A stretch of DNA of 64,000 bases, from assembly GCF_023156195.1 (NCBI RefSeq), contig NZ_JAKUKA010000001.1, positions 6,201,501 to 6,265,500 of the forward strand. Direction: 5' to 3'. The position numbers were made by a program, and so were the translations under genes. The stretch is from Chitinophaga sedimenti. GTDB lineage: Bacteria > Bacteroidota > Bacteroidia > Chitinophagales > Chitinophagaceae. Positions 27,844 to 45,293 of this stretch are shown in pieces; positions within the stretch are counted from its first letter, which is position 1, and each line of letters opens with the position of its first letter. The notes under the pieces were generated by a model that ran no database searches, was not told the DNA's origin, and saw only the letters and a list, made by a program, of their open reading frames with translations.

Positions 27844-28404
27844 ATGATGACGGTACTGCTGTTTCCTGTTTTTCTTTCGCTCAGGGCCTTCTTGTCCTAT
27901 AGATCGTCTGTCCTATATGCCCTTTCAGTAACTTCTGGCTTACAAAATACAAAATCCGGCAAAATATAACAGCGGAATTTATGGCTTGAACAGCTTTGAT
28001 TCCAGCCGGGAAACACTTTATCATATTAAATATGTTAAGATATTTTATGCGCCATTCACCCGCTGCCAGTTTTTAGCGGTCTTCTAAGTACATCGGTACA
28101 ATTTAATGTGCATCGATGGCATTTATTAAGTGTCTATAGTAGTGGAGGCCATTCCTGGCCTCCAATCTTTCTTTCTGCCATGCGTTTAACCACACATTAA
28201 CAACCCAACGCTTTTAAAGTACTCCCATCATTCTTAAATTTGCGGCGTGAATTGTTTGGAATCGTTTGTCAACTTGAGCGCCCCGGTTGGGCTTTACTTT
28301 CATCGTCGCATTGTGTAACCTGTTATTTTCCAGTCCGTTTATTATTAGCTTAAGACCCGGTTCTCGTGTTTTCTAATACGAGGAGAGGGCAATGTTTTGA
28401 AAAA
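27844..28404. other. Intergenic region between anti-sigma-like and sigma genes
   Basis: 561 bases without a supportable gene. A hairpin GGAGGCC-ATTCCT-GGCCTCC lies at about 28146-28165 with a T-rich tail, compatible with a terminator. No full promoter consensus was seen. Confidence 0.4.
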
Positions 28405-28893
28405 ATGGAAGCAGCTACATTTGAAACAGTTTACCGGCAGAAGTATGAAGTATTTTGCATTGCGGCATATGCCATCCTGGGCAACAAGGAGGATGCGAAA
28501 GACGTCGTTATCAACCTCTTTGCCGATATTTGGGAAAAGCGGGAGTACTACCAGATTGCAGACATGGAGAGTTATATGTGGAGGGCTGTAAAAAACCGGT
28601 GTTTCAACCACCTGAGCAAACGTGCGTTCCAGGAAACCCGCGAACTGGATTACCAGCAGGGACTTCGCGATTATGTACTGCCCGAAGTTTACGCCAGCGA
28701 AGTAAAGGAGATGCTTGCGCACGCCGTTAATGAAATGCCACCCCAGCGTATGCAGGTGTTTACGTCTATTTATCTTGATGAGCAGAAATATCATGAAACG
28801 GCCACCAGCTTAGGCATTTCCATCAACTCTGTAAAAACGCACATGAAACTTGCCCTAAAACACCTAAGGGTACGGCTTTCCGAAAATTTTTAG
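28405..28893 (+). CDS. ECF RNA polymerase sigma factor
   Basis: 162 residues. Region 2: 'FETVYRQKYEVFCIAAYAIL', 'AKDVVINLFADIWEKRE', 'SYMWRAVKNRCFNHL'. Region 4: 'MPPQRMQVFTSIYLDEQKYHE' and 'SLGISINSVKTHMKLALKHL' (helix-turn-helix). This is the Bacteroidota ECF group usually paired with FecR-like anti-sigmas. The ATG at 28405 is chosen over an in-frame ATG 39 bases upstream because MEAATFE aligns with the family start. Likely partner: the short membrane protein at 27424-27843. Confidence 0.88.
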   Translation: MEAATFETVYRQKYEVFCIAAYAILGNKEDAKDVVINLFADIWEKREYYQIADMESYMWRAVKNRCFNHLSKRAFQETRELDYQQGLRDYVLPEVYASEVKEMLAHAVNEMPPQRMQVFTSIYLDEQKYHETATSLGISINSVKTHMKLALKHLRVRLSENF

Positions 28894-28941: not shown

Positions 28942-28971
28942 TTGCATTTTCGGTATTACTGATTACTTTTG
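28942..28971 (+). promoter_or_regulatory. his operon promoter
   Basis: TTG at 28942-28944, 19 bases, then TACTTTTG at 28964-28971, a full TAnnTTTG match. The expected transcription start (about 28975-28977) is only a few bases before the leader-peptide ATG at 28981. Confidence 0.7.
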
Positions 28972-28980
28972 TACCCGAAT

Positions 28981-29043
28981 ATGAAATTCAACGCAGTATA
29001 TATCCATCATCATCATTTTTACCGCGCCGGTAGGCTGGGATGA
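28981..29043 (+). CDS. hisL: his leader peptide (four consecutive His codons)
   Basis: A 20-codon frame, ATG at 28981 and TGA at 29041-29043. Codons 9-12 (29005-29016) are four CAT histidine codons in a row: the peptide reads MKFNAVYI-HHHH-FYRAGRLG. It sits between a promoter and a terminator hairpin ahead of hisG, the arrangement of attenuator leader peptides such as enterobacterial HisL. A ribosome stalled on the His codons would cover the first pairing segment of the downstream RNA. The coding role is inferred from this geometry. Confidence 0.85.
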   Translation: MKFNAVYIHHHHFYRAGRLG

Positions 29044-29110
29044 TTTTATGTACGCTTAAACGATATAAAAACATCATCAAAGGCTTACCGGATCCGGTAA
29101 GCCTTTTTAT
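29020..29110 (+). promoter_or_regulatory. his operon transcription attenuator
   Basis: Three alternative pairings can be drawn. Segment 1 TACCG (29020-29024) pairs with segment 2 CGGTA (29028-29032) inside the last leader codons. Segment 2 CGGTAGGCT (29028-29036) pairs with segment 3 GGCTTACCG (29082-29090), giving nine pairs including two G-U. Segment 3 AGGCTTACCG (29081-29090) pairs with segment 4 CGGTAAGCCT (29095-29104), a perfect terminator stem followed by a T run. Stalling at the His codons would block 1:2, allow 2:3 and prevent the 3:4 terminator. Confidence 0.85.
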
Positions 29111-29150
29111 TTTCCGGCTGCCGGGCTGACGCCTGCCAAAAACAGATACA

Positions 29151-30003
29151 ATGCAAAAGCTAAGAATTGCGATCCAGAAATCAGGCCGTTTACACGACGA
29201 TTCAATGAAACTGCTGAAAGAGTGCGGTATTGACATGAACAACGGTGTTAACAAGCTAAAAACCGAAGCCAGCAACTTTCCGCTGGAGCTATTTTTCCTG
29301 CGCGATGACGATATTCCGCAGTACGTAGAAGACGGTGTGGCCGACATCGGCATCGTGGGCGAAAATGTAGTGCTGGAAAAGGCGCGCACAGTAGACGCTA
29401 TCGAGAAACTGGGCTTCGGCAAATGCCGCCTGTCGCTTGCAGTTCCCAAGTCAATGGAATACAGCTCCGTCCAGGAAATGCAGAACATGCGCATCGCTAC
29501 CAGCTACCCCGTAATCCGGCAGGCGTTCCTTGACAAAAACAACATCAAGGCCGAAATCCACGAGATCAGCGGTTCCGTTGAAATTGCTCCTGGCATTGGT
29601 TTGGCAGAGGCGATCTGTGACCTGGTGAGCAGCGGTTCCACTTTATTCATGAACGGTTTGAAGGAAGTGGAAACGATCCTCAAATCGGAAGCCGTACTCA
29701 TCGCCAATAAGGGGTTAACCGCCGAACAGGTGGCCATCTGGACAAATTGCTGTTCCGCATCAAAGCCGTTAAGAAAGCGAAGAACAATAAGTACGTGCTG
29801 CTCAACGCGCCTAACAGCAACCTGGCACAGATCATCAGCCTGCTGCCCGGTATGAAAAGTCCCACCGTTCTGCCTTTGGCCGAAGAAGGATGGAGCTCCG
29901 TACACTCTGTACTCAACGAAAATGATTTCTGGGATATCATCGAGAGCCTGAAAGCCGCCGGTGCGCAAGGCATCCTGGTAGTACCGATCGAAAAAATGGT
30001 GAT
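29151..30003 (+). CDS. hisG: ATP phosphoribosyltransferase, one frameshift
   Basis: First enzyme of histidine synthesis, joining ATP and PRPP. About 285 residues, the long HisG form with the C-terminal regulatory ACT-like domain that binds histidine ('FWDIIESLKAAGAQGILVVP'). Visible motifs: 'LRIAIQKSGRLHDDSMKLL', 'DIGIVGENVV', and 'GLAEAICDLVSSGSTL' (PRPP loop). The break is CTGG at 29738-29741, where CCTGG restores 'AEQVAILDKLLFRI'. The stop TAA ends near 30007. First structural gene of the operon, behind the attenuator. Confidence 0.95.
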
Positions 30004-30026
30004 ATAAACGTTAAACGAAAGGAGAG

Positions 30027-31306
30027 ATGCAATACATCCGTTACCCGGAAAAAAGCACTGGAGCAATATCCTGCAACGCCCCGCCATCGATACTCGTGAG
30101 CTGGAAAGCCGCGTGGCAGCGATTCTCGACGAGGTTAAAACAGGAGGCGACGCAGCCATCCGCAAATTCGCATGGCAATTTGATAAAGCGGAACTCAATA
30201 CACTGAGCGTGAGCAACGCGGAATTTGACGCCGCTGCCGCGAATGTAAGCGACGAACTGAAAGCTGCAATTCAACAGGCGAAAAGCAATATTGAGTTTTT
30301 TCATAAGAGACAGGCGGAACAAACGCAGGTGGTGGAAACAATGCCCGGTGTACAATGCTGGCGCCGCGCTACCGCTATTGAAAAAGTGGGATTGTACATC
30401 CCCGGCGGTTCTGCCCCGCTTTTCTCAACTATATTGATGTTGGGTATTCCTGCGAAACTGGCCGGTTGTAAAGAAATAGTGCTTTGTTCGCCGGCAGGGA
30501 AAGACGGGATTCATCCGGCTATCCTGTATACCGCGCAGCTGGTAGGAATCACGCAGGTGTTTAAGATCGGTGGTGTGCAGGCCATTGGCGCCATGGCGTA
30601 TGGCACGGAAAGTGTGCCCCGCGTGTTCAAGATTTTTGGTCCGGGTAACCAGTATGTCACCTGCGCAAAGCAACTGGTAAGTAAAGCTGGTCTTGCGATC
30701 GATATGCCTGCCGGTCCTTCCGAAGTGGCGGTGCTGGCCGATGATACTTGTGTGCCCGATTTTGTGGCGGCGGATTTATTGTCACAGGCCGAGCACGGGC
30801 CAGATAGCCGGTGGTACTTGTCACCACCTCTGAAAAGGTAATTGAGGATGTGAAAGTCGCTGTGGAAAAGCAACTTGCCGAACTGCCCCGTCGCGATATT
30901 GCCGAAAAGGCCCTGCAAAACAGTAAACTGCTGCTGGTGAAAAATACAGATGAAGCCATGGAGTTGCTGAACGCATATGCCCCCGAGCACCTCATCGTGG
31001 CCTGCGAAAATGACCAGGATATTGCCGATCGCGTCGTGAACGCCGGCTCTGTATTCCTGGGCAATTACTCGCCAGAAAGCGCCGGGGATTACGCTTCCGG
31101 CACCAATCACACGCTGCCGACCAATGGCTATGCTACAGCATATAGCGGTGTGTCGCTCGACAGCTTCGTGAAAAAATTACTTTCCAGCGACTGACCGCAG
31201 CGGGCTTACAGCAATTGGGGCCCGTGATCGAAACCATGGCCGCAGCAGAAGGACTGGATGCCCACAAACTGGCTGTTACCGTACGTTTAAAAGCACTCAA
31301 CAGTTA
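30027..31306 (+). CDS. hisD: Histidinol dehydrogenase, three frameshifts
   Basis: Last two oxidation steps of the pathway, from histidinol to histidine. About 427 residues when repaired. '[18 protein letters not shown]', '[14 protein letters not shown]', '[15 protein letters not shown]' and '[12 protein letters not shown]' (Zn and active-site region) are diagnostic. The start at 30027 has a strong AAAGGAGAG upstream. Breaks: A6 at 30049-30054 (A7 expected), CCGG at 30808-30811 (CCAGG expected), and A6 at 31171-31176 (A7 expected). Nineteen bases behind hisG. Confidence 0.95.
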
Positions 31307-31317
31307 AACTTTACATC

Positions 31318-32358
31318 ATGTTCGACTTAAATAACTTACTCCGCGATAATATAAAAAGGCTGGTGCCTTATTCTTCCGCAAGGGATGAATTTAAAGGAGA
31401 GGCAAGCGTTTTTCTCGATGCTAATGAGAACAGCTTCGGCTCCCCGCTGGAAAAGGATTACAACCGTTATCCGGATCCCATGCAGTGGAAAATAAAATAC
31501 AAACTGGCCGATATCAAAGGCGTGCCGCCGCAGAATATTTTTCTCGGTAACGGCAGCGATGAATGTATAGACGTGCTGTACCGCGCATTCTGCCGCCCCG
31601 GCGTAGATAACGTGGTGCTTTGTCCACCGACATACGGCATGTACGAAGTAAGCGCCAACATCAACGATACTGTTATCCGCAAAGTGAGTCTCACCGAAGA
31701 TTTCCAGCTGGACCTGCCCGCAATGGAAGAGGCGATCGACGGAAACACCAAACTGATTTTTATCTGTTCCCCCAATAACCCCACAGGTAACTCTATTAAC
31801 CGGGAGGATATTGAAATGATCCTGAACAATTTTGACGGGATTGTGGTGATCGATGAAGCATACATCAACTTCGCAAAGCAGAAAACATTTATCCAGGAAC
31901 TGACCGAATACCCGAATCTTGTTGTGCTGCAGACATTATCGAAAGCATGGGGACTGGCTGGTTTGCGCCTGGGAATGGCCTATGCAGGTGAACCGATCAT
32001 CGATGTGATGAACAAGATCAAACCGCCTTATAACATCAACCAGGCAACGCAGGAGCTGGTGGAAGAGGCGCTGAACAACACGCAGAAAATAAACGACTGG
32101 ATTAAAGAAACGGTAATTGAGCGAGATAAACTGGTAGCGGGATTGGTGAAACTGCCCGCAGTATTGAAAGTATATCCCAGCGATGCCAACTTTGTGCTGG
32201 CTAAAACCACGGATGCTAAAGCCTTGTACAATAAACTGGTAGAGCAGGGCATCATCGTCCGCGATCGCTCCAAAGTGGAGCTCTGCGCCGGTTGCCTTCG
32301 TATTACAGTAGGCACGCCCGAAGAAAACGTTCAACTGTTAAACGCATTACAAGCATGA
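31318..32358 (+). CDS. hisC: Histidinol-phosphate aminotransferase
   Basis: 346 residues, unbroken. A PLP-dependent fold-type I enzyme: '[13 protein letters not shown]' start motif, '[15 protein letters not shown]', '[12 protein letters not shown]', '[10 protein letters not shown]', and the PLP lysine in '[17 protein letters not shown]'. It transfers an amino group from glutamate to imidazole-acetol phosphate. The stop overlaps the hisB start (ATGA at 32355-32358), indicating coupled translation. Confidence 0.96.
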
Positions 32359-33491
32359 AAAGAGTACTGTTCGTCGACCGCGACGGCACCATGATCAAAG
32401 AAAAGCCGCCGACCTACCAGATCGATAGCCTGGATAAAGTGGAGTTTTACCCGAAAGTATTTACCTATCTCGCTAAAATAGCCGCTGAACTGGATTTTGA
32501 GCTGGTGATGGTGAGCAACCAGGACGGCATGGGTACAGATGCTTTCCCCGAAGATACCTTCTGGCCTGCGCAAAACCATATCCTGCGCTCGTTTGAGAAC
32601 GAAGGAGTGGTGTTTTCCAATATTTGTATCGACTGTAGTTTTCCGCACGAGAACAAGCCGACCCGTAAACCCGGTACCGGCATGCTGACCCAGTATATGA
32701 CCGATGCGTACGATATGGCCAACAGCTTCGTGATCGGTGATCGTATTACGGATGTGCAGCTGGCGATGAACCTCGGCGCCAAAGCTATCTGGATGAAGGA
32801 AGACGCGGCTTTAGGCGCGTCGGAAGTGAATGATGACGCGGCTAAGTTACAGGCGGTGGTGGCGCTGGAAAGCACCGACTGGCAAAAAATATACGAATTC
32901 CTGAAAATTGGCATCCGGGAAGTGGAGCACGTGCGCACCACCAAGGAAACCGACATCCGCATCAAACTGAACCTGGATGGCACCGGTAAAGCGAACATCA
33001 GCACAGGTCTGCACTTTTTCGACCATATGCTGGACCAGATTGCCCGCCACGGCAGTATTGACCTGGAAATTATCGCGAAGGGCGATTTGCATATAGATGA
33101 GCATCATACCATAGAGGATACCGGTATCGCCCTGGGAGAAGCCATCGCAGCAGCTTTAGGTGATAAAAAAGGGATGGAACGATACGGATATTGTTTGCCG
33201 ATGGACGACTGCCTGGCCCAGGTAGCGCTCGATTTCGGCGGCCGCAACTGGATCGTGTGGGATGCTGAATTCAAACGGGAGAAAGTGGGCGATATGCCCA
33301 CCGAGATGTTCTTTCACTTCTTCAAATCCTTTTCAGACGCGGCGAAAGCCAATCTGAACGTGAAAGCGGAGGGAGAAAACGAACATCATAAAATAGAGGC
33401 GATCTTCAAGGCATTTGCAAAAGCCATTAAAATGGCGGTAAAACGCAATCCCGACAAGATGCAGCTGCCCAGTACAAAGGGCGTGCTCTAA
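32355..33491 (+). CDS. hisB: Bifunctional histidinol-phosphatase / imidazoleglycerol-phosphate dehydratase
   Basis: 378 residues, unbroken. N-terminal HAD phosphatase (1-165) with '[15 protein letters not shown]' and the Cys-rich Zn loop '[12 protein letters not shown]'. C-terminal dehydratase (about 185-378) with the Mn-binding 'HHTIEDTG', 'DFGGRNW', and '[16 protein letters not shown]'. The fusion is known in enterobacteria and many Bacteroidota. The ATG at 32355 overlaps the hisC stop. It ends only 8 bases before the trp promoter elements, with no terminator in between. Confidence 0.96.
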
Positions 33492-33498
33492 AAATTAA

Positions 33499-33529
33499 TT
33501 TGTAATTCTGGAAATTCTTTGCATATTTG
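33499..33529 (+). promoter_or_regulatory. trp operon promoter
   Basis: TTTG at 33499-33502, 19 bases, CATATTTG at 33522-33529; one mismatch to TAnnTTTG. Spacing and position relative to the leader ATG (33538) match the his promoter almost exactly. Confidence 0.6.
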
Positions 33530-33537
33530 TTCCCGAT

Positions 33538-33597
33538 ATGACAAAGACTTTCACATACAAATATTGGTGGCACAACAACAGAGCTCTCGCTGTGTAA
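33538..33597 (+). CDS. trpL: trp leader peptide (two consecutive Trp codons)
   Basis: A 19-codon frame from ATG 33538 to TAA 33595-33597 that reads MTKTFTYKY-WW-HNNRALAV. The two TGG codons are at 33565-33570. Tandem Trp codons in a short frame before a terminator and trpE are the hallmark of trp attenuation, as in enterobacterial TrpL. The frame lies a few bases after the promoter, like the his leader. Coding role inferred from the geometry. Confidence 0.85.
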   Translation: MTKTFTYKYWWHNNRALAV

Positions 33598-33662
33598 CAG
33601 TGCCATGTTTGTATTACAAATATTTGAAGGCTCGCTGTACACAGCGGGCCTTCTGCTTTTTA
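33588..33662 (+). promoter_or_regulatory. trp operon transcription attenuator
   Basis: Segment 1 CGCTGT (33588-33593) can pair with segment 2 ACAGTG (33597-33602). Segment 2 ACAG and GCC (33597-33604) can pair with CTGT and GGC of segment 3 (33629-33638), with a small internal loop. Segment 3 AAGGCTCGCTGT (33627-33638) pairs with segment 4 ACAGCGGGCCTT (33641-33652), followed by a T-rich tract to 33661: the terminator. A ribosome paused at the Trp codons would favour 2:3 over 3:4. The antiterminator is weaker here than in the his leader. Confidence 0.75.
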
Positions 33663-33761
33663 GGCCGGTTCCGGAACGGAGTCAGAAGCAAAATATCCGA
33701 AAGTATTATTCAGCCATCCCCGGGCAGGTAGCCCGGTACAAAGTTTATACTGCGTTCTGTC

Positions 33762-35171
33762 ATGAAACAAATTGAAGTACGGACGAAATACAAACAAATG
33801 CTCGCCGATGTGTACACGCCGGTTAGTATTTACCTGCGCATCAGGGATAAATTCCCCGGCTCGATCCTGCTGGAAAGTACGGACAGCCATGCCAGCGAAA
33901 ACAGTTATTCTTTTATTGCCATCAAACCGATTGCCGGTATTGAGGTAACTTCCACGGATATTTTCGAATTCAAGTACCCGAACCGCGAACCGGAACGCAG
34001 GCAGTTGAACAGTCCTGCCGAAGTGTTGAAGGAAATGGATACCTTCCTGCAGCGTTTTAAATTTGTAGAGAAGTCGCCTGTTCCCTTTACAGAAGGACTT
34101 TACGGCTACAGCACTTTCGACGCCGTACAATTTTTCGAAACGATCAGGTTCCAGCAACGCGCCACCAATGGTAATACGATCCCATTAATGCGTTATCGCT
34201 TTTACCAGTATGTGATCGTCATCAACCACTTTAAAGATGAAATGTACCTGGTGGAAAATGCGATCGACGGTGTGGAAAGCGAATTTGACCAGATTGAATC
34301 GCTGATACGCATTAAAGATTTCCCGGCATATCCTTTCGCGGCCAAAGGGGAGGAGTTCAGCAATATGACGGGCGAACAGTACATGCAAATGGTAGAAAAG
34401 GGCCGCGAACACTGTTTCCGCGGCGACGTATTCCAGATCGTACTTTCCCGTTCCTTCCACCAACAGTTTTCCGGCGACGAATTCAATGTATACCGCGCCC
34501 TCCGCTCCATTAACCCTTCTCCTTATCTCTTTTATTTTGATTACGGTGATTATAAACTGATGGGTTCGTCGCCTGAAGCGCAACTCATTGTACGCAATGG
34601 TAAAGCCGTAATTCACCCGATTGCCGGTACTTTCAGGAGAACCGGCAACGATGAGCAGGATAAAAAGCTGGCCGCACAATTGCTCGAAGATCCGAAGGAA
34701 AACGCTGAACACGTGATGCTGGTCGACTTAGCGCGTAATGACCTGAGCCGCCACGCTACTGAAGTAGAAGTAACTTCCTACAGGCAGATACATTTTTACT
34801 CTCACGTAATTCACCTGGTGAGTGAAGTGACCGGAAAGATCAACGGTGAAACACCTCCTTTCAGCATCCTCGCCGATACGTTCCCTGCAGGCACTTTGTC
34901 CGGCGCGCCGAAATTTAAAGCGATGGAGTTGATCGATAAATACGAACCGACTTCCCGCGGCTTCTACGGCGGATGTGTGGGTTTCGTGGGCTTTAACGGC
35001 GATTTTAATCACGCGATCATGATCCGCTCGATGCTGAGCAAGAACAACACATTATACTACCAGGCGGGAGCCGGCGTGGTGGCCAAATCCGTGGCCGCTT
35101 CCGAACTGGAAGAAGTGAACAATAAATTGAATGCACTGAAACAGGCCATCATAAAGGCGCAAAACATCTGA
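33762..35171 (+). CDS. trpE: Anthranilate synthase component I
   Basis: 469 residues, unbroken. Converts chorismate to anthranilate with TrpG. The feedback-site motif 'ILLESTDSH' near the N-terminus matches the LLES tryptophan-binding element, and the C-terminal chorismate-binding core has 'MGSSPEAQLIV', 'PIAGTFRRTG', 'VDLARNDLSR' and 'AGTLSGAPKFKAMELID'. First gene behind the trp attenuator; the spacing to trpG is two bases. Confidence 0.95.
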   Translation: MKQIEVRTKYKQMLADVYTPVSIYLRIRDKFPGSILLESTDSHASENSYSFIAIKPIAGIEVTSTDIFEFKYPNREPERRQLNSPAEVLKEMDTFLQRFKFVEKSPVPFTEGLYGYSTFDAVQFFETIRFQQRATNGNTIPLMRYRFYQYVIVINHFKDEMYLVENAIDGVESEFDQIESLIRIKDFPAYPFAAKGEEFSNMTGEQYMQMVEKGREHCFRGDVFQIVLSRSFHQQFSGDEFNVYRALRSINPSPYLFYFDYGDYKLMGSSPEAQLIVRNGKAVIHPIAGTFRRTGNDEQDKKLAAQLLEDPKENAEHVMLVDLARNDLSRHATEVEVTSYRQIHFYSHVIHLVSEVTGKINGETPPFSILADTFPAGTLSGAPKFKAMELIDKYEPTSRGFYGGCVGFVGFNGDFNHAIMIRSMLSKNNTLYYQAGAGVVAKSVAASELEEVNNKLNALKQAIIKAQNI

Positions 35172-35173
35172 CA

Positions 35174-35743
35174 ATGAATATCCTCGTTTTCGATAACTAC
35201 GATTCTTTCACATACAACCTGGTGCATCTTGTAGAAAAGATCATCAACGGAAAAGTAACCGTGCACCGCAACGACAAGATCAAACTGGAAGATGTGAAAG
35301 CATTTGATAAGATTATTTTGTCGCCCGGCCCGGGTATTCCGGAAGAAGCAGGTTTACTGCTGCCTTTGATCAGGGAATACGCCGCCACCAAATCGATCTT
35401 CGGTGTGTGTTTAGGTCAGCAAGCCATTGGCGAAGCTTTTGGCGGTAAACTGATCAATCTTTCAGAAGTATATCATGGTGTGGCTACGCCCGTGCAGATC
35501 ATTTCCCGCAACGGCAGGCTGTTCAACCATCTGCCCGATGAGCTGGAAGTAGGCCGTTACCACTCCTGGGTAGTAGACGAAAAATCACTGCCAGCCGAAC
35601 TGGAGGTGACCGCCAGAGATGCACATGGTTATGTAATGGCGCTGCAGCATAAAACATATGATGTAAGCGGCGTACAGTTCCATCCCGAAAGCGTATTGAC
35701 GCCCAAAGGAGAGCAGATACTCAGGAACTGGCTGGAGAAATAG
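35174..35743 (+). CDS. trpG: Anthranilate synthase component II (glutamine amidotransferase)
   Basis: 189 residues, unbroken. Class I amidotransferase: 'VFDNYDSFTYNLVHL', oxyanion strand 'SPGPGIPEEAG', nucleophile Cys in 'GVCLGQQAIGEAFGG', and the His-Glu pair in 'GVQFHPESVLTPKG'. It supplies ammonia to TrpE. Not fused to TrpD, unlike the enterobacterial form. Confidence 0.95.
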   Translation: MNILVFDNYDSFTYNLVHLVEKIINGKVTVHRNDKIKLEDVKAFDKIILSPGPGIPEEAGLLLPLIREYAATKSIFGVCLGQQAIGEAFGGKLINLSEVYHGVATPVQIISRNGRLFNHLPDELEVGRYHSWVVDEKSLPAELEVTARDAHGYVMALQHKTYDVSGVQFHPESVLTPKGEQILRNWLEK

Positions 35744-35779
35744 GCAATACTTTTTTCTCACCATTAACATCAAACCGAC

Positions 35780-36756
35780 ATGAAAAAAATACTGAATTAT
35801 CTTTTTGAACATAAAACTTTTACCCGCGAAGGAGCCAAAGAAATCCTGACCGGTATTGGCAAAGGCCAGTACAATGAAAGTGAGCTTGCGGCATTTATGA
35901 CCGTATTCCTGATGCGTACCATTACGATCGACGAGCTGCTCGGCTTCCGTGATGCCCTGCTCGAAATGTGCGTGCCTGTTGATTTGAACGGCCACGACGT
36001 ACTCGACATCGTGGGTACCGGCGGCGATCAGAAAAACACGTTTAACATTTCCACCCTGTCTTGTTTCATTGTAGCCGGCGCAGGTGGAAAAGTGGCGAAG
36101 CATGGTAACTATGGTGTGTCTTCCGTAAGCGGCGCCTCCAACGTCATGGAGTTGGTTGGGTACAAATTCAAAAACGACCAGGGCGCGCTGAACAGGGAAC
36201 TGGAAGAAGCGGGCATCTGCTTCTTACACGCACCGCTGTTCCACCCCGCATTAAAAACGTAGCGCCGATCCGCAGGCAACTGGGTGTTCGCACGTTCTTT
36301 AACATGCTGGGCCCCCTGGTAAATCCCGCTTTTGCGAAATCGCAGCTGATTGGCGTATACAGCCTTGAAATGGCCAGAATTTATAACTATCTTTTCCAGC
36401 AGACCGATAAACGCTTCGTGATCGTGCACAGCCCGGATGGTTACGATGAAATATCGCTTACAGGCGACACCAAAGTGATTTCCAACATAGGAGAACATAA
36501 CTGGACGCCGGAAGCGCTGGGCAAACGTAAAGTAACCCCGCAGGATATTTACGGCGGTGCTACGACCGAAGAAGCGGCGAAGATATTTGTGAAAGTCCTG
36601 AAAGGCGAAGGCACCTGGGCGCAACATTCCGTAGTACTGGCTAACGCCGCTATGGGATTGAATTGCCTTGGTACTTACAAAGATTACGACAGCTGCTTCC
36701 AGGCGGCCGTGGAGTCATTAGAATCGGGCAAAGCATACCAGTCGTTCAAAAATTGA
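35780..36756 (+). CDS. trpD: Anthranilate phosphoribosyltransferase, one frameshift
   Basis: About 326 residues when repaired. PRPP loop 'DIVGTGGDQKNTFNIST', 'AKHGNYGVSSVSGASNVMEL', and 'FFNMLGPLVNPA' are diagnostic. The break is A5 at 36253-36257; A6 restores 'HPALKNVAPIRRQLG'. It follows trpG by 36 bases. Confidence 0.95.
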
Positions 36757-36779
36757 TCAGTCTCCAATAAACACCGGGC

Positions 36780-37583
36780 ATGAAAAACATTTTAACAGCA
36801 ATCGTTGAAACGAAGAAGGTTGAAGTAGCGGAGCGTAAAAAACTGCGCAGCATTGATGATTTAAATAAATCTCCGCTGTACAGGTGTAACCCGTTTTCCC
36901 TTCGTGAGTTTTTGCGGATGCCCGAAAAAACGGGCATTATCGCCGAGTTCAAACGGAAGTCGCCGTCCAAAGGTATTATCAACGACCGGTATTCGGTGAA
37001 AGATATTACCTGCGCGTATTCCAGGTTTGGAGCGTCCGGTTTGTCGGTTTTAACAGACGGTCCCTACTTCGGCGGCTCGGTGGAAGACCTGAAAGAAGCC
37101 CGCGCGATTAACCGCATTCCCATTTTGCGCAAGGATTTCGTGATCGATCAATACCAAATTGCGGAAGCAAAGGCAATCGGCGCAGATGTGATCCTCCTGA
37201 TCGCGGAATGTTTGACGAAAGAAGAAGTAGCCCATCTATCAAAATATGCGGAGGACACGGGACTGGAAGTACTGCTGGAAGTAAACAGTCTGCCGCAGGT
37301 TGATAAAGTAGCACCTTCAGTACACCTGGTGGGCGTGAATAACCGCGACCTCACTACTTTTACGGTAGATATCAACCGCTCATTCGAACTGGCGGAACAT
37401 ATTCCATCTGATAAACTGAAAGTGGCGGAAAGCGGCATTAATGATGTGAACAGTATTGTATCACTGAAAAAGGCCGGCTTCGACGGATTTTTGATCGGCG
37501 AGCATTTCATGAAGCAGGAGAACCCGCCTGCGGCATTCGAAACATTCGCCAATTACCTGAAGGAGCAATTGAAGGCTATATGA
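36780..37583 (+). CDS. trpC: Indole-3-glycerol phosphate synthase
   Basis: 267 residues, unbroken. TIM-barrel with the catalytic Lys/Glu motif 'IAEFKRKSPSKGII', 'ILRKDFVID', 'VGVNNRDLTTF' and 'VAESGINDVN'. It closes the indole ring of the pathway. Its stop overlaps the trpF start (ATGA at 37580-37583). Confidence 0.96.
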   Translation: MKNILTAIVETKKVEVAERKKLRSIDDLNKSPLYRCNPFSLREFLRMPEKTGIIAEFKRKSPSKGIINDRYSVKDITCAYSRFGASGLSVLTDGPYFGGSVEDLKEARAINRIPILRKDFVIDQYQIAEAKAIGADVILLIAECLTKEEVAHLSKYAEDTGLEVLLEVNSLPQVDKVAPSVHLVGVNNRDLTTFTVDINRSFELAEHIPSDKLKVAESGINDVNSIVSLKKAGFDGFLIGEHFMKQENPPAAFETFANYLKEQLKAI

Positions 37584-38214
37584 AAGTAAAAGTATGCGGC
37601 ATCACGAGGGCGGAGCAGCTCGTCGCCCTGGAACAGGGCGGCGCGGATTATGCTGGCTTCATATTTTACGAACGCTCGCCGCGCTTTATGGGTAACAAAC
37701 TGGATGCGCGTACGGTACGCGAAACAGCGGCAAACATAAAAAAGTAGGAGTATTCGTAAACGCCCCGTTGCAGCAGGTGTTGCAAATCATTAAAGACTAC
37801 GGCCTGGACGCGGCACAGTTGCATGGCGATGAAACGCCGGAGTACTGCAGTGCAGTGCGGCAGGCAGCGATCGTTATCAAAGCATTCCGCATTGGTGACG
37901 GTAAAACGGTAGAAGACGTTGCCATTGCTTACGAAGGTGTGTGCGATTATTTTTTGTTTGATACCGCAGGCAAAGAATATGGCGGCAACGGGCAACTGTT
38001 CGACTGGGCGCTGCTTGCGCAGTACCCATTTAAAACACCTTTCTTTTTAAGCGGCGGTATTGGTCCCGCACAGGCGCAGGCCTTGCTGGAACTGCAATTG
38101 CCCGGACTCTACGCGGTAGACGTTAACAGTAAATTTGAAACCTTACCCGGCATTAAAGACATGCGACAGGTACAGGATTTCATCAACAACATTAAACAAT
38201 CACCTGTAAAATAA
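37580..38214 (+). CDS. trpF: Phosphoribosylanthranilate isomerase, one frameshift
   Basis: About 211 residues when repaired. '[14 protein letters not shown]' (catalytic Cys), '[13 protein letters not shown]', '[13 protein letters not shown]' and '[13 protein letters not shown]' are diagnostic. The break is A6 at 37738-37743; A7 restores '[13 protein letters not shown]'. ATG overlaps the trpC stop. Confidence 0.95.
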
Positions 38215-38222
38215 ACAGTACG

Positions 38223-39430
38223 ATGAATATTGCGGTTAGCACGAGGGGCTCTAAGTATCATGTAAATGAGAAAGGCTATTACGGCAAATTCGGCGGTGCT
38301 TACATCCCGGAAATGTTGTACCCGAACGTAGAAGAGCTGCGCACTCAATATATGGAGATCATGAAAGATCCCGCATTTCAGCAGGAGTTCGAAGAACTGT
38401 TGCGCGATTATGTGGGCCGTCCGTCTCCACTCTATTTTGCAAAAAGGTTGTCCGAAAAATACGGCGCTAACATTTACCTCAAACGTGAAGACCTGAACCA
38501 CACCGGCGCACATAAAATCAATAATACGATTGGGCAGATCCTACTGGCGAAACGCCTCGGCAAGAAACGCATCATCGCGGAAACAGGCGCCGGGCAGCAC
38601 GGCGTGGCTACGGCTACGGTTTGCGCCCTGATGGGATTGCAGTGCATTGTGTATATGGGCAGCGTAGACATCCAGCGCCAGGCGCCGAACGTGGCCCGCA
38701 TGAAAATGCTCGGTGCGGAAGTGATCGCGGCAACCAGCGGCAGCCAAACCCTGAAAGACGCTACTAATGAGGCGATCCGCGACTGGATCAATAATCCGGT
38801 GGATACGCATTACATCATTGGTTCTGTAGTGGGACCGCATCCTTATCCGGATATGGTGGCGCGTTTTCAGTCGGTAATCAGCGAAGAGATCCGTGCACAG
38901 CTGAAAGAAAAGACCGGTAAAGAAACACCGGATTATGTGATCGCCTGTGTAGGCGGCGGCAGCAATGCGGCGGGTGCTTTCTTTCATTTTACAGAAGACG
39001 AGAAAGTACAGCTCATCGCCGTGGAAGCGGCAGGACAGGGTGTGCATAGTGGCTATTCGGCCGCTACTTCTCAATTGGGAAAGATAGGGGTGATCCACGC
39101 GAGCAAAACCCTCCTCATGCAAACCGAAGACGGACAGATTGTTGAGCCACACTCGATTTCAGCGGGACTTGACTATCCCGGTGTAGGACCGATGCACGCG
39201 AATTTGTACGATACCGGTCGCGGTGTGTTCCTGAATGCCACGGATGAAGAATCGCTGCAGGCGGCTTATGAGCTGTGTCGCCTCGAAGGTATCATCCCTG
39301 CCCTCGAAAGCGCGCACGCACTGGCCAAGCTGAAGGACCGGAGCTGAAACCTACCGATACCGTAGTGGTGTGCCTCTCCGGCCGCGGCGATAAAGACACG
39401 GAAACTTATATCAAAAATCTTCAAAAATAA
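38223..39430 (+). CDS. trpB: Tryptophan synthase beta subunit, one frameshift near the end
   Basis: About 403 residues when repaired. The PLP lysine in '[19 protein letters not shown]', '[17 protein letters not shown]', and the phosphate loop '[10 protein letters not shown]' are diagnostic. The break is CCGG at 39338-39341; adding one C gives '[20 protein letters not shown]' and the normal C-terminus ending at TAA 39428-39430. It is followed at once by trpA. Confidence 0.96.
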
Positions 39431-40206
39431 ATGGCAATGAACCGCATTGACCAACTGTTCAGCAAGAAACAGCAAAATGTGCTCAACATCTATTGTACCG
39501 CGGGTTATCCCAACCTGGCGGATACTTTGCCGGTGATCAAGGCCACGGAGGCTGCCGGCGCCGATATGGTGGAACTGGGCATGCCTTTTTCCGATCCATT
39601 GGCAGATGGGCCTGTGATCCAGGCAAGCAGCACAAAAGCGATCGCCAACGGCATGAGCATCAAAACGTTGTTCGAACAACTGAAGGAAATGAGAAGTTCT
39701 TTTAATCTTCCCTTGATCCTGATGGGCTATATTAACCCCGTATTGCAGTTTGGCATGGAGAATTTCCTGCAACACTGCGCAGCTGTGGGGGTGGATGGCA
39801 TCATTCTGCCCGACCTGCCGATGCAGGAGTACGAGGAGGACTACAAACCACTGTTCGAAAAATATGGCCAGCACTGGTATTCCTGATCACACCGGAAACC
39901 AGCGATGAGCGCATCCGCAAGATCGATAGTGTGAGCAGAGGTTTCGTGTACGCGGTATCCTCTTCCTCCACAACCGGTAAGGACAAGAGTTTTGAGGGAC
40001 AGCAGGCATATTTCGAGCGCATCAAAAAATTACAACTGAAAAACCCCGTGTTGATTGGGTTTGGTATAAAAGATAAAGCTACTTTTGAGGCGGCAAGTGC
40101 GTACAGCAACGGTGCCATCATCGGCACCGCGTTCGTAAAGGCGCTGGAAGCGGGTGGAGAGGTGTCGCAAACCGTGGACAGGTTCGTGAAAGCCATTATC
40201 AACTAA
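39431..40206 (+). CDS. trpA: Tryptophan synthase alpha subunit, one frameshift
   Basis: About 259 residues when repaired. 'VELGMPFSDPLADGPVIQ' (catalytic Glu and Asp region), 'LILMGYINPVLQFG' and 'LVFLITPETSDERI' after repair. The break is CTGG at 39874-39877, where CCTGG is expected. The start may be 39431 or 39437. The stop is seven bases before hisH, with no hairpin between. Confidence 0.96.
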
Positions 40207-40213
40207 GCTATTT

Positions 40214-40807
40214 ATGAAAACAGTCATTATAAAATACAACGCCGGCAATATCCGCTCCGTGCTGTTCGCCCTGGAGCGGCAGAACGTGGAAGGCGTGGTA
40301 ACCGACGATCCCGCTGAAATCCGCGCGGCGGACAAAGTGATTTTTCCCGGTGTGGGCGAGGCCAGCACGGCCATGCGTTACCTGCGGGAAAAGGGGCTGG
40401 ACAAAGTAATCAAAAACCTGGAGCAGCCTACGTTGGGTATTTGCCTGGGCATGCAGTTGATGTGCAAACATTCTGAAGAGAATAATACCGACTGCCTTGG
40501 CATCTTTGATCTGAACGTCAGGAAATTTACCTCGCCGGTGGAAAACCTGCTGAAGATCCCGCAAATTGGCTGGAACAATATCACAGGGTTGCACAGCAAG
40601 ATTTTTGAACACGTGCCGCAAAACGCTTACATGTACTTTGTGCATAGCTATTACGCGGAGCTTGGCCCGGAAACTACGGCCATCGCGAATTACGTGATCA
40701 ACTACAGCGCTGCGCTGCAGAAGAATAACTTTTACGCCGCCCAGTTCCACCCCGAAAAATCGGCGGAGCATGGCGAGAAACTGATTGAGAGCTTTTTGAA
40801 CTTATAG
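40214..40807 (+). CDS. hisH: Imidazole glycerol phosphate synthase, glutaminase subunit
   Basis: 197 residues, unbroken. Class I amidotransferase with '[11 protein letters not shown]', '[11 protein letters not shown]', nucleophile Cys in '[10 protein letters not shown]', and '[13 protein letters not shown]'. Works with HisF. It begins seven bases after trpA and two bases before hisA, so the second half of the his genes looks co-transcribed with trp. Confidence 0.96.
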
Positions 40808-40808
40808 C

Positions 40809-41534
40809 ATGTCTTTTGAAATTATACCCGCCATCGACATCATCGGCGGAAAATGTGTTCGGCTCACGCAGGGCGATTATGCACAAAAAACGGTGTACAA
40901 CGAACATCCGCTGGAAGTAGCGAAGGAATTTGAAGATGCGGGCATTACCCGGCTGCATCTTGTAGACCTGGATGGCGCAAAGAAAGGTGCGGTCGTAAAC
41001 TGGAAAGTGCTGGAAGATATTGCCGGCAAAACCAGTATGGTCATCGATTTCGGCGGTGGTATCAAAACGGATAAAGACATCAGCATCGTATTCGAAAGCG
41101 GCGCGGCCATGGCTACCATCGGCAGCGTGGCAGTAAAGCAGCCGGAGGTATTTTTTAGCTGGGTGGATCAATATGGCCCGGAAAAAATATTTCTCGGTGC
41201 GGACGTAAAGGGTGAGAACATTGCCGTAGGCGGCTGGCTCGAAACTACGGAGCTGAGTGTGTACGACTTCCTGCAATCCAATGTGGATAAGGGTGTACGC
41301 AATATATTTTGTACAGATATTTCTAAAGATGGCCTTTTACAGGGACCATCTACGGAGCTTTATAAGAAGATACTGGAACGTTTTAAGAACATCCATTTCA
41401 TTGCCAGTGGCGGTGTGAGCAATATTAAAGATGTGGAAGCCCTGCGGGAAGCGGGTTGCGCGGGTGCGATCATCGGCAAGGCCATTTATGAAAACAGGAT
41501 TTCGATAAACGAACTCAAACAATTCAACGCTTAA
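40809..41534 (+). CDS. hisA: ProFAR isomerase
   Basis: 241 residues, unbroken. '[19 protein letters not shown]' is the HisA start motif with the catalytic Asp; 'VDLDGAKKG', 'DFGGGIKTD' and '[12 protein letters not shown]' mark the phosphate sites of the TIM-barrel. Stop to hisF start is six bases. Confidence 0.96.
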
Positions 41535-41540
41535 CAAGTT

Positions 41541-42295
41541 ATGCTTACAAAACGCATCATTCCCTGCCTGGACATTAAAGACGGCAGGACCGTAAAGGGC
41601 GTAAACTTCGAAAATATCCGCGATGCGGGCGATCCCATTGAACTGGGCGCTTTGTACGCACAGCAGGGCGCCGATGAACTGGTGTTCTGGACATTACCGC
41701 GACCGTGGAACGCCGCAAAACGTTGGCAGAACTGGTAACGCGGATCGCACATCATATCAACATTCCATTTACAGTAGGCGGTGGCATCAGTTCGGTAGAA
41801 GATGTTAGCGTGTTGCTGAACGCAGGTGCAGACAAGGTTTCCGTGAACTCGGCAGCTTTTCGCCGGCCTGAATTACTGAATGAGCTTTCGTTGGAATTCG
41901 GCAGCCAGTGCATCGTGCTCGCCATCGACACAAAATTTGAAGATGGTGACTGGTATGTATACCTGAATGGCGGCCGCGTGAAAACGGAAGCCAAAACGGC
42001 GGATTGGGCGAAAGAAGCGGTGGATCGTGGCGCCGGTGAAATTTTGCTCACCTCCATGAATAACGACGGTACTAAACAGGGCTTTGCACTGGACATTACC
42101 GGTAAACTCGCGCAGGAGCTGCCTGTTCCTGTAATTGCCTCCGGCGGTGCGGGTACCATGCAGCATTTTGCAGATGTGTTTGAAGTTGCACAGGCAGATG
42201 CGGCACTGGCGGCCAGCATCTTCCATTATAAAGAAATGGAAATTCAGGAACTCAAGAAATACCTTTACCAACGAAACCTCTCGATTCGCTTTTAA
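41541..42295 (+). CDS. hisF: Imidazole glycerol phosphate synthase, cyclase subunit, one frameshift
   Basis: About 252 residues when repaired. '[17 protein letters not shown]', '[13 protein letters not shown]' after repair, '[12 protein letters not shown]' and '[14 protein letters not shown]' are diagnostic. The break is CTGG at 41687-41690, where CCTGG is expected. Confidence 0.96.
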
Positions 42296-42324
42296 GCAAA
42301 TCAATATAGAATATTTTTATATTT

Positions 42325-42917
42325 ATGCAGATAGATTTTAAAAAATCACCGGACGGCCTGGTGCCCGCCATTATCCAGGATGCAAATACGGATAAAGTAT
42401 TGATGCTCGGTTACATGGACCAGGCGGCCTTCGATAAAACCATGCAGGAAGGAAAAGTAACGTTTTACAGTCGCTCGAAACAACGGCTGTGGACAAAAGG
42501 AGAGGAGAGCGGCAATTTCCTGCACCTGAAAGACGTTAAAGTAGACTGTGATCACGATACTTTGCTGATCAAAGCCGAACCCGTAGGCCCTGTATGTCAC
42601 ACCGGTGCAGACACCTGCTGGAACGAAAAAATGAAAGCAACGATTTCCTGTTCAAGCTGGAGCAGGTAATTGCAGATAGAATCGCCAACCCGAGCGAGGC
42701 CTCCTATACCGCCAAACTGTTTGCCAGGGGCATTAATAAAATGGCGCAAAAGGTGGGAGAAGAAGCTGTGGAGCTGGTGATAGAAGCCAAAGATAATAAC
42801 GATCACCTGTTCCTGAGCGAAGGCGCCGATCTGCTGTTCCATTACCTGATATTGTTACAGGCCAAAGGTTTTAAGCTGTCGGACATCATTAACGTGTTGA
42901 AGGAAAGGCATAAATAA
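42325..42917 (+). CDS. hisIE: Bifunctional phosphoribosyl-AMP cyclohydrolase / phosphoribosyl-ATP pyrophosphatase, one frameshift
   Basis: About 198 residues when repaired. HisI part: 'VLMLGYMDQAAFDKTMQ', 'TFYSRSKQRLWTKGEESGN', Zn ligands in 'VDCDHDTLL' and 'CHTGADTCW'. HisE part: 'RGINKMAQKVGEEAVELVIE'. The break is A6 at 42626-42631 at the domain border; A7 gives 'NEKNESNDFLFKLEQ'. The first TlpA-like gene follows after seven bases. Confidence 0.95.
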
Positions 42918-42924
42918 ACCAGTA

Positions 42925-44010
42925 ATGAAGAACCTGTTTTTATCCGTAGCAATACTGACTTCCGCCCTGGCGGCCCATGCCCAGCAAACCATCAGCGGCA
43001 CATTTAAGGGCGCCAACAGCAAAACGCTTTACCTGTTCGATGACACGTCCGACGGGCCGCGCGATTCCGTAATTGTAAAAGACGAAAAATTCAGGTTTAC
43101 GCTGAAACCAGGTGGAGACGCGGAAATTTACGCGCTGTTGCTGCAGGATGCCGATAATTTTATGTTCGTGGTGCCGCGCAAAGACGCGTCGCTCGAATTT
43201 ACACTGGATACCGGCCATTTCCCGCTGGCCAACGATATGAAGGTGAACGACGATACGAAATACATGCAGTTGTACCAACGTACGTTCACCAGCTTCTCCA
43301 AACAAGCGGCGAAACTGAACGAAGAGGCACAGCACATTGGTCCCAACGACCAGGCCGCCTACGAGGCGTTCAAGAAAAAGGCAGATACTTATAATAAAGG
43401 GGTAGTCGCCGCCGGCCGCGACTTTATCACCCAATACCCCGATAAACTGGCAAGCCTCTGGATGCTGGGCAATGAACTGGCCAAACGCTGGAAATTTCGG
43501 AGCTGGAGGCCTTGTACTACATTGACCCCGGCAGTCCGTAAATCCAAACACGCCGCCCGCATATCCGGTTATCTCGCTTCGCAGAAAGCACAGGCGCTGA
43601 ATGTAGCGGCCGACGATTTTACGCAGAACGATACTAAGGGCAAACCGGTGAAACTGTCATCTTTCCGCGGAAAATATGTGTTGGTCGATTTCTGGGCCAG
43701 CTGGTGCGGACCCTGCAGGCAGGAGAATCCCAACGTGGTAGCCGCTTATAACAAGTATAAGGATAAAAACTTCACGGTACTGGGCGTTTCGCTGGATGAG
43801 GACCGGAACGACTGGCTGAAGGCGATTGCGGCCGATAAACTCCAGTGGACACAGGTTTCCGACCTCCGCGGCTGGCAAAACAAAGTGGCGCAGCAGTATG
43901 GCGTTCGCTCCATTCCAGCTAACTTCCTGGTTGATCCCCAGGGAAAAATAGTAGCCCGCAATCTCCGCGGTATGGACCTGGACGCTAAACTGGACGAATT
44001 GCTGCAATAG
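42925..44010 (+). CDS. TlpA-like thioredoxin-family lipoprotein/periplasmic protein (copy 1)
   Basis: 361 residues. Signal peptide ('MKNLFLSVAILTSALAAHAQ'), N-terminal DUF4369-like domain, helical linker, and a C-terminal AhpC/TlpA thioredoxin domain with the redox motif WCGPC in 'VDFWASWCGPCRQENPN'. Such periplasmic proteins reduce or rearrange disulfides. Residues about 188-203 read strangely ('RWKFRSWRPCTTL'); inserting a C at CTGG 43488-43491 gives 'LEISELEALYY', and a second opposite or two-base change near 43525 returns to frame, so the open frame hides a double error. Seven bases behind hisIE. Confidence 0.88.
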   Translation: MKNLFLSVAILTSALAAHAQQTISGTFKGANSKTLYLFDDTSDGPRDSVIVKDEKFRFTLKPGGDAEIYALLLQDADNFMFVVPRKDASLEFTLDTGHFPLANDMKVNDDTKYMQLYQRTFTSFSKQAAKLNEEAQHIGPNDQAAYEAFKKKADTYNKGVVAAGRDFITQYPDKLASLWMLGNELAKRWKFRSWRPCTTLTPAVRKSKHAARISGYLASQKAQALNVAADDFTQNDTKGKPVKLSSFRGKYVLVDFWASWCGPCRQENPNVVAAYNKYKDKNFTVLGVSLDEDRNDWLKAIAADKLQWTQVSDLRGWQNKVAQQYGVRSIPANFLVDPQGKIVARNLRGMDLDAKLDELLQ

Positions 44011-44079
44011 CCGTTTATCAAAATAGCGTTGGATTTACCTCCTCAAAGCGAGATTTTTGCAGAGAACAAAACAGTGAGT

Positions 44080-45212
44080 ATGAAACGAATAGTTCTAGTA
44101 GCAGCACTATTCCTTCCCTGGGCACTCGCAGCCCAGCCCAAAACGAAACCGCTTCATTATGATATAAAGGGCACTACCACCATTGAACAGCCCGGCAAGG
44201 TGTATATCAGCTTCAGAAAGGCCGATAGAAACCAGCTGGACAGCGCCGAAGTGGTGAACGGACAGTTTGTTTTCAAAGGGAAGCTGGACGAACCCGTGTA
44301 TGCCTCCATTTTCATGTACCTTGACTTGCCCGAAAGACCCGGCAGCAAAAGCCGCAAAGAAATAGCAAAGTTTTTCGTGGACAAAGGCACTACCACCGTT
44401 GACATTAAAGATGTAAGCGGCAATGCAGCGGTGCAGGGTGGGCGGGCCCAACAGGACCTGGAACGCCTGAACGAGCTGGAATCGTCTATCGGCAAACAAT
44501 GGGAAGAGTTGCAGCAACAATATCGCAAATATTACGCGGCGAAGGATGAGGAAGGGATGAAGAAAACGGAATCCATGTTCGCAGAGCTGGATGCCAAACG
44601 CAGCGCCACCCAACGCGCTTACCTCAAACAACACCCCGCCACACCCATCGGCATTTACGTAATCAATACACTGGCGGGTTACGATATTAATATTCCTGAA
44701 ATAGAACCCGTTTTTAATAATCTGTCGGAAGAGGTGCGGCAATCACCATCGGGACAGGCGTTTTACCGCCGCACGGATATTGCCCGCAAAACGCAGGTGG
44801 GACAACCTTCCATCGACTTCGTACAGCGTGCGCCGGACAGTACAGCGGTCAGCTTATCATCGCTGCGCGGTAAGTACGTGCTGGTCGATTTCTGGGCCAG
44901 CTGGTGCGGTCCCTGCAGGGCAGAGAACCCCAACGTCGTAAAAGCTTACAATCGTTTTAAAGATAAAAACTTTACGATACTGGGTATTTCGCTGGACGAC
45001 TCCGCGATAAATGGCTAAAGGCCATCGAGAAAGATCAGCTGAACTGGCAACAGGTAAGTGACTTGAAAGGCTGGCAGAACGAAGTGGCCCGGTTGTATGG
45101 CATCCGCGCCATCCCGCAAAATTACCTGCTGGACCCGAAAGGCAAAATCATCGGTAAAAATCTGCGTGGCGACGCGTTGGAAAAGAGACTGGAAGAATTG
45201 ATGGGCGAGTAA
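44080..45212 (+). CDS. TlpA-like thioredoxin-family protein (copy 2), one frameshift
   Basis: About 378 residues when repaired, with the same plan as the preceding gene: signal peptide ('IVLVAALFLPWALAAQ'), DUF4369-like domain, linker, thioredoxin domain with WCGPC ('FWASWCGPCRAENPN'). The pair probably arose by tandem duplication. The break is CC at 45002-45003; one more C gives 'DDSRDKWLKAIEKDQLNW' and a normal end at 45212. The start at 44080 is chosen because it begins a signal peptide. Confidence 0.88.
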
Positions 45213-45264
45213 GCTTATCTTTCTATATAAAAGAGACGAAAAATGGGGCTGTGCGGGATGTGCA

Positions 45265-45293
45265 GTCCCTTTTTTATGCAGTAAAAAAGGGAC
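45265..45293 (+). terminator. Bidirectional-type hairpin after TlpA pair
   Basis: A perfect 12-bp stem GTCCCTTTTTTA (45265-45276) / TAAAAAAGGGAC (45282-45293) with the loop TGCAG. Related GTCCCTT motifs recur on both sides. It probably ends the long his-trp-his-tlpA transcript. Confidence 0.65.

Follow-up and report, generated by a model that had tools for sequence, protein, structure and literature searches.

In enteric bacteria a single leader peptide can serve several amino acids, as in thrL (Thr, Ile) and ilvL/ivbL (the branched-chain amino acids). The aromatic supraoperon of Bacillus subtilis places hisC after trpA and under trp control via TRAP, and in fungal general amino acid control the shortage of one amino acid induces the pathway of another in trans, through a transcription factor. 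Enteric trpL (RF00513) combines tandem Trp codons with protector, antiterminator and terminator hairpins. Among the Bacteroidetes, Rfam describes a tryptophan peptide leader, Bacteroid-trp (RF01692), which the available text of Weinberg 2010 (PMC2864571) lists as a Bacteroidetes motif. Leader-peptide attenuation has also been proposed in Flavobacterium psychrophilum, in a study whose available text describes leader peptides ahead of operons for amino acid biosynthesis (PMC9723704). Here we analyze a 64,000-nucleotide (nt) stretch of Chitinophaga sedimenti DNA (hereafter the window, meaning the whole stretch), in which the genes of a complete trp operon, together with a putative promoter and attenuator of their own, sit between hisB and hisH of the his operon. 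We favor, at a probability a little above one half (about 0.57), the reading that a ribosome-mediated attenuator responsive to both Trp and His gates trp and hisHAFIE at this locus. This reading draws on the order of the genes, the two leaders with their folds, the joint conservation of a His codon and of linkage in a set of loci centered on the Chitinophagaceae, and a stall window computed in relatives with a Trp-Trp-Trp-His (WWWH) leader.

The whole cluster lies on the + strand, in the order hisL-hisGDCB, trpL-trpEGDCFBA, hisHAFIE, two more genes and a terminator. The trp switch opens with a promoter-like element, TTG-N19-CATATTTG (33500..33529), recognized by its box and spacer. It is followed by the leader peptide trpL, MTKTFTYKYWWHNNRALAV (33538..33597), with the control codons TGG TGG CAC (Trp-Trp-His, or WWH), and by the terminator hairpin of the trp attenuator with its T tail (33626..33661; hairpin at 33626-33653 in the terminator scan). 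The his switch upstream is built alike: a promoter-like element, TTG-N19-TACTTTTG (28942..28971), the leader peptide hisL, MKFNAVYIHHHHFYRAGRLG (28981..29043), whose control codons include His and no Trp, and a terminator hairpin (29079..29106). Each has the marks of a classical attenuator, namely a short leader open reading frame (ORF) with control codons and a terminator ahead of the first gene. Both leaders fold better than any of 200 shuffled versions (z = -5.8 for trp and -4.2 for his). The terminator scan lists no + strand site between hisB and trpL, and the three + strand sites with at least 11 pairs within 28942-45277 are the two attenuators and the end of the cluster (45245..45277; scan site 45245-45269); the overall number of terminator-like matches, 32 against 25.7 (standard deviation 5.3) in shuffles, by itself proves nothing. 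The junctions are tight: 8 bases separate the hisB stop (33491) from the start of the trp promoter-like element (33500), and 7 separate the trpA stop (40206) from the hisH start (40214). Both distances, as well as the missing terminator after hisB, agree with the original prediction for this locus, and its two attenuators in series, with hisHAFIE downstream of the trp one, are supported by the leaders, the hairpins and the gene order.

The promoter calls follow the consensus TAnnTTTG (-7) and TTTG (-33), as stated in the available text of PMC7366714. In the window TAnnTTTG alone occurs at the chance level (47 against 43.6), so the calls rest on position and spacing; a sigma-70 scan is uninformative for this phylum (21 sites against 21.9 expected), and an Rfam search of the window at gathering level returned nothing except a tRNA. 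Both hisL and trpL have their ATG 8 to 9 bases past a -7 box, which in turn is preceded by a TTG at a distance of 19 bases; for hisL the ATG comes 9 nt after the box, which would make its message nearly leaderless. Comparable geometry recurs in relatives, with a -7-like box recognized upstream of 151 of 176 trp leaders, its median distance to the ATG being 7 bases (in 146 the distance is within 10). Since the leader ATGs sit so close behind the box, translation of the trp leader peptides (those of the window, L039-L138 and L226-L305) probably proceeds from messages that are nearly leaderless, although leaderless messages make up only 5.5% in a Flavobacterium transcriptome, according to the available text of PMC9723704. 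An intrinsic terminator hairpin was found in 175 of 177 leaders, and a His-rich leader stands before hisG in 37 of the 44 loci whose sequence includes the start of hisG plus 150 bases or more ahead of it.

The comparison set comprises 201 loci: 100 from the same family, a further 20 from the order and family, 80 named ones and the window itself; removal of near-identical TrpE left 184. We call a locus linked if hisH, hisA, hisF or hisIE is present on the same strand no more than 3 kb beyond the trp genes, unlinked if at least 3.5 kb of downstream DNA lacks such a his gene, and undecided if too little downstream DNA is available. As to the gene order, whose conservation in relatives the original prediction had left to be checked, 92 of the 184 loci are linked, many of them of the same family; 50 are unlinked and 42 undecided. 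The median gap between the trp genes and the first his gene of the linked loci is 22 bases, and hisB is seen upstream in 55 of them, no more than 500 bases away in 27; several others have too little upstream DNA to tell. The place of hisF was determined in 26 genomes classed as unlinked: a close hisF is present elsewhere in 24, only a distant one in another, and none in the last; in 22 of those 24, hisH, hisA, hisF and hisIE stand together elsewhere, in 15 with the end of hisB. The placement of trp within his is an established arrangement in the family and no assembly accident.

The observation that carries the dual reading concerns the codon after the Trp run. His directly follows the run in 85 of the 90 linked loci with a leader, as opposed to 19 of 48 unlinked loci, or 10 of 31 when trpA also had to be seen (Fisher p = 2e-12 and 1e-11, relatedness being ignored in both); leaders were not found in seven of the 184 loci (two linked, two unlinked, three undecided). 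The other residues at this position in unlinked loci are Q (10), L (10), N (6), P, S and Y (one each). Within the codon, C and A are near-invariant in the linked loci (88/90 each), the third base being T in 65, C in 20, A in three and G in two. A His codon also stands directly before the run in 21/90 linked loci vs 1/48 unlinked ones, a post hoc comparison that again ignores relatedness, and H shows no excess beyond the control codons (3/90 vs 3/48). In a class-wide sample outside the family and a second family treated below (f36), 24 loci yielded 18 leaders, one of which has H. The intrinsic terminator is present in 89 of the 90 linked leaders; a consensus fold of 45 of the 60 eligible linked leaders recovers it, and seven of the 21 predicted pairs have changed on both sides.

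The original prediction held that hisHAFIE are expressed from the trp promoter without any histidine control, so that half of histidine synthesis would answer to tryptophan supply only, a true mismatch between pathways. The Trp codons do head the control run, and hisHAFIE lie right behind trpA, here and, by their short median gap, in the linked loci at large. The conserved His codon and the stall scan set out below speak against this model, which we regard as highly improbable. The claim that histidine control is lacking is probably wrong, since it overlooked the His codon that follows two Trp codons in trpL, lies in the computed stall window and is conserved in 85 of 90 linked loci. What survives of the proposal is the position of half of the his pathway behind the trp attenuator; control by Trp alone gives way to joint control by Trp or His as the better description.

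In the mechanism we propose, the upstream his attenuator would govern hisGDCB, and the trp attenuator, reading two amino acids, would govern trpEGDCFBA-hisHAFIE. A ribosome on the near-leaderless trpL that waits at Trp, or at His past the run, would open the protector stem, allowing the antiterminator to form and transcription to continue into trp and hisHAFIE; with both tRNAs charged, the ribosome would proceed and the terminator would form. RNA reading through from hisGDCB would have to pass the trp switch as well. On such RNA from the his promoter, trpL lies far from a 5' end, and if it is not translated, the predicted default fold is the terminator, in which case the trp attenuator would shield hisHAFIE from the his promoter. 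The actual transcripts, the stalling at His and the antitermination are what we infer, above all for C. sedimenti. Dual specificity is indicated by the WWH leader ahead of an operon containing hisHAFIE and by the stall window computed in related WWWH leaders. For the latter, bases were masked from the A-site codon on, and the energy that the RNA gains on adding the 5' arm of the terminator was computed. In 75 linked WWWH leaders under a 13-nt mask, the gain was -10.1 kcal/mol for the last W and -10.3 for H; one codon further on it was -7.4, and past that codon -1.8. A 14-base mask produced a sharp drop after His (-9.8, then -4.4), and when 11 or 12 bases were masked, the codon after His nearly equaled it. 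By this model, a stall at His would be as good as one at Trp in the linked WWWH leaders, and His would stand at or near the end of the stall window.

Several results weigh against dual sensing. The position after the Trp run also falls in the stall window of 29 unlinked leaders without H (-6.1 vs -6.2 at the last W), so the stall geometry permits, and cannot prove, His sensing. In the window's own genus (10 loci) the protector lies partly past the stop codon and the scan is weak and flat, with H not singled out, so we infer the His-stall step for the window itself from relatives. Five linked loci lack H right after the run: L110, L113 and L136 have Q, L201 has S and L262 has WWGH; the linkage of L201 is doubtful, as hisF lies 41 kb from trpE in its genome. 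Further, the bases of the H codon are mostly paired in the protector stem (means of 0.96, 0.76 and 0.93 in 85 linked H leaders). This agrees with an attenuator that senses Trp only, in which the His codon is kept for protector-stem pairing and its co-occurrence with linkage reflects shared ancestry. However, in 20 of the 66 linked hairpin-type H leaders the post-stop dinucleotide, the prospective partner of CA, differs from TG although CA is kept, an argument that does not separate His from Gln, both of which share CA. The non-T third bases likewise argue against pairing as the whole cause: they are C in 20 and A or G in three linked leaders, vs five and 10 in unlinked ones (p = 0.001), and 6:0 vs 3:4 in hairpin-type leaders alone (p = 0.07). 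RNA pairing accounts for part of the conservation of the His codon, though probably not for all of it.

The locus counts are not independent of shared ancestry. On a concatenated Trp protein tree, a Pagel-type test preferred dependent evolution of H and linkage, which speaks against a Trp-only sensor (likelihood ratio 28.8 with 138 loci, 32.3 with a strict set of 121, 4 degrees of freedom; 32.1 without five outgroup loci). The fitted rate of H loss was 2.5-2.6 in the unlinked state vs 0.15-0.16 in the linked one, i.e., 15-17 times faster when unlinked; some fitted rates lie at bounds, and a few events can drive such tests. Phylogenetically independent pairs favor the Trp-only alternative in that they are too few for significance, most being uninformative, and, to that extent, count against ours: supported branches of the strict set gave eight pairs (2.8 in the expected direction, 0.0 in the opposite one and 5.2 without a difference), and all loci gave 12 (2.5, 0.1 and 9.4). 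A tree of TrpE alone yielded few supported pairs, seven (2.5 agree, 0.2 disagree, 4.3 no difference); the concatenated tree gave more, still below significance.

H also occurs apart from linkage, a further point for the Trp-only alternative and against ours. Within the family, genus g22 has H in 12 of 13 leaders even though hisF is far from trpE (six genomes checked). Family f36, of the same class and another order, was sampled with 60 genomes, one per genus, 55 of which yielded TrpE and 58 HisF. Nineteen of them carry hisF on the trpE strand, 7 to 12 kb further downstream, and in the two genomes whose hisF loci were examined (G602, G633) hisH, hisA, hisF and hisIE stand together, with no hisB match in the upstream stretches. 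Its leaders were scored by hand, with those of G602 and G523 taken from a separate scan, leaving out G690 and G708 (unlinked, with two disagreeing candidate leaders), G655 (no leader), G660 (20 kb) and G667; G633 (linked, WWWH) is outside the 60 and was not counted. Here H is frequent either way, in 15 of 19 linked and 21 of 32 unlinked leaders (p = 0.36), and the rule that H marks linkage everywhere, which we tried, fails in this family. As its unlinked leaders keep H, the codon can persist, or be useful, without linkage. Taking the pairing, the pairs and these families together with the third-base and dependent-evolution results, we consider a sensor of Trp only unlikely, though a serious contender. 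Upstream of trpE, three f36 genomes, G664 (L382), G690 (L386) and G708 (L413), have two candidate Trp leader ORFs, possibly serial trp attenuators. Family f19 speaks for the dual reading: in the four loci where the available DNA suffices, hisB precedes trpE, no hisH comes after the trp genes, and the leaders are WWWN in three and WWWY in one (L194). These loci (L193-L196) present a half version of the layout, with hisB directly upstream of trpEGDC and, in L193, L195 and L196, hisG, hisD and hisC too.

A different objection is that a promoter inside trpA supplies most hisHAFIE transcripts, in which case both attenuators would matter little there, whatever trpL senses. The original prediction saw no promoter before hisH; this needs correction, as a TACTTTTG box lies within trpA (40080..40087), with TTG at a spacer of 16 or 22, and this candidate tells against gating of hisHAFIE by the attenuator. 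Moreover, 15 of the 92 linked loci contain a TAnnTTTG box in the 170 nt leading up to hisH, where the frequency in trp gene bodies predicts 2.8. On the other hand, the trpA box is part of coding sequence, and this may account for its conservation within the genus; it is absent from two (L227, L228) of ten Chitinophaga-type loci examined; its spacers differ from the 19 nt at both attenuator promoters; and the other 77 linked loci lack a box of this kind in the 170 nt. An internal promoter in this dominant role, which would be compatible with other readings of trpL, seems improbable to us.

Returning to the dual Trp/His attenuator, we tentatively propose, at odds a little short of even, a history for it: after trp landed inside the his operon, trpL gained a His codon at the last switch-opening position and retained it, yielding one cis sensor for two unrelated amino acids, kept in this family mainly while hisHAFIE lie downstream. 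If true, this would be an operon fusion repaired at the regulatory level—the insertion would have severed half of the his pathway from its attenuator, and one codon in the inserted leader would have restored His sensing while coupling both pathways. The linked loci with H, the unlinked ones with H and the unlinked ones without H form a natural comparative series, partly in named isolates, which lets the evolution of attenuator specificity be tested. Isolates with the linked layout include Chitinophaga deserti (L228), Niastella soli (L255) and Flavihumibacter fluminis (L256).

The source genome measures 6.42 Mb in three contigs, with an estimated completeness of 80.5%. The nearest relatives belong to Chitinophaga: TrpE is 95% identical in L226 (a metagenome-assembled genome, Chitinophaga sp.) and 96% in the same-genus L039, against whose proteins the gene order in the window was checked. 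An NCBIfam scan of ten proteins (TrpE, HisH and HisA of the window and seven from L039) matched the expected his and trp families, the best match of TrpE, trpE_most, reaching 425 bits, under the curated cut-off of 517.7. The order check, combined with family matches of the L039 proteins, places hisG (29151..30007), hisD (30027..31307), hisC (31318..32358), hisB (32355..33491), trpB (38223..39430), trpA (39437..40206) and hisF (41541..42295). Together with the window's own NCBIfam matches, it places trpE (33762..35171), hisH (40214..40807) and hisA (40809..41534), and by itself trpG (35174..35743), trpD (35780..36756), trpC (36780..37583), trpF (37580..38214) and hisIE (42325..42917). Within 29151-45209, eight of the 15 his and trp genes (hisG, hisD, trpD, trpF, trpB, trpA, hisF and hisIE) and the second gene after hisIE are split between frames in this assembly, whereas their counterparts in L039 are intact; given that the genome is only 80.5% complete, this looks like sequencing error rather than decay. 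The two genes after hisIE (42925-45212), which read as thioredoxin-like, precede the terminator-like hairpin that ends the cluster, and their relatives also follow hisIE in many linked loci. Directly upstream of the his promoter, an ORF (28366-28893) may encode an ECF sigma factor-like protein, judging by its sequence.

Set beside the known families, the trp leader of the window shares the tandem Trp codons of enteric trpL and, as predicted, its three hairpins, and differs in the His after the Trp run, the near-leaderless message and an operon that runs on into hisHAFIE. The window scores 23.5 bits at best with RF00513, for which the gathering threshold is 41, and 26.3 with Bacteroid-trp, which the leader resembles as a Bacteroidete tryptophan peptide leader and for which the threshold is 49; none of 20 sampled relatives reaches either. 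A term search finds no "histidine" in the main text of PMC2864571. The F. psychrophilum proposal concerns leader peptides in the same phylum, and the available text names no trp-his operon or two-pathway leader, "histidine" and "tryptophan" being absent from its main text (PMC9723704). We found no description of the trp-his layout or of a Trp-His leader in the literature searched, most subscription papers lying outside it, and none in the available text of PMC4833913, PMC10138114, PMC2395257, PMC2864571, PMC2965389, PMC9723704 and PMC7366714. In kind, the element is most likely a ribosome-mediated attenuator working by the leader-peptide mechanism already known, and what would be new is the sensing of Trp and His before a composite trp-his operon. 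In thrL and ilvL/ivbL the amino acids sensed share pathway enzymes, whereas the Trp and His pathways are separate and would be joined here by operon layout alone. The B. subtilis supraoperon brings one aminotransferase under TRAP, in contrast to half of the his pathway placed behind a leader peptide, and unlike fungal general control the present switch would act in cis.

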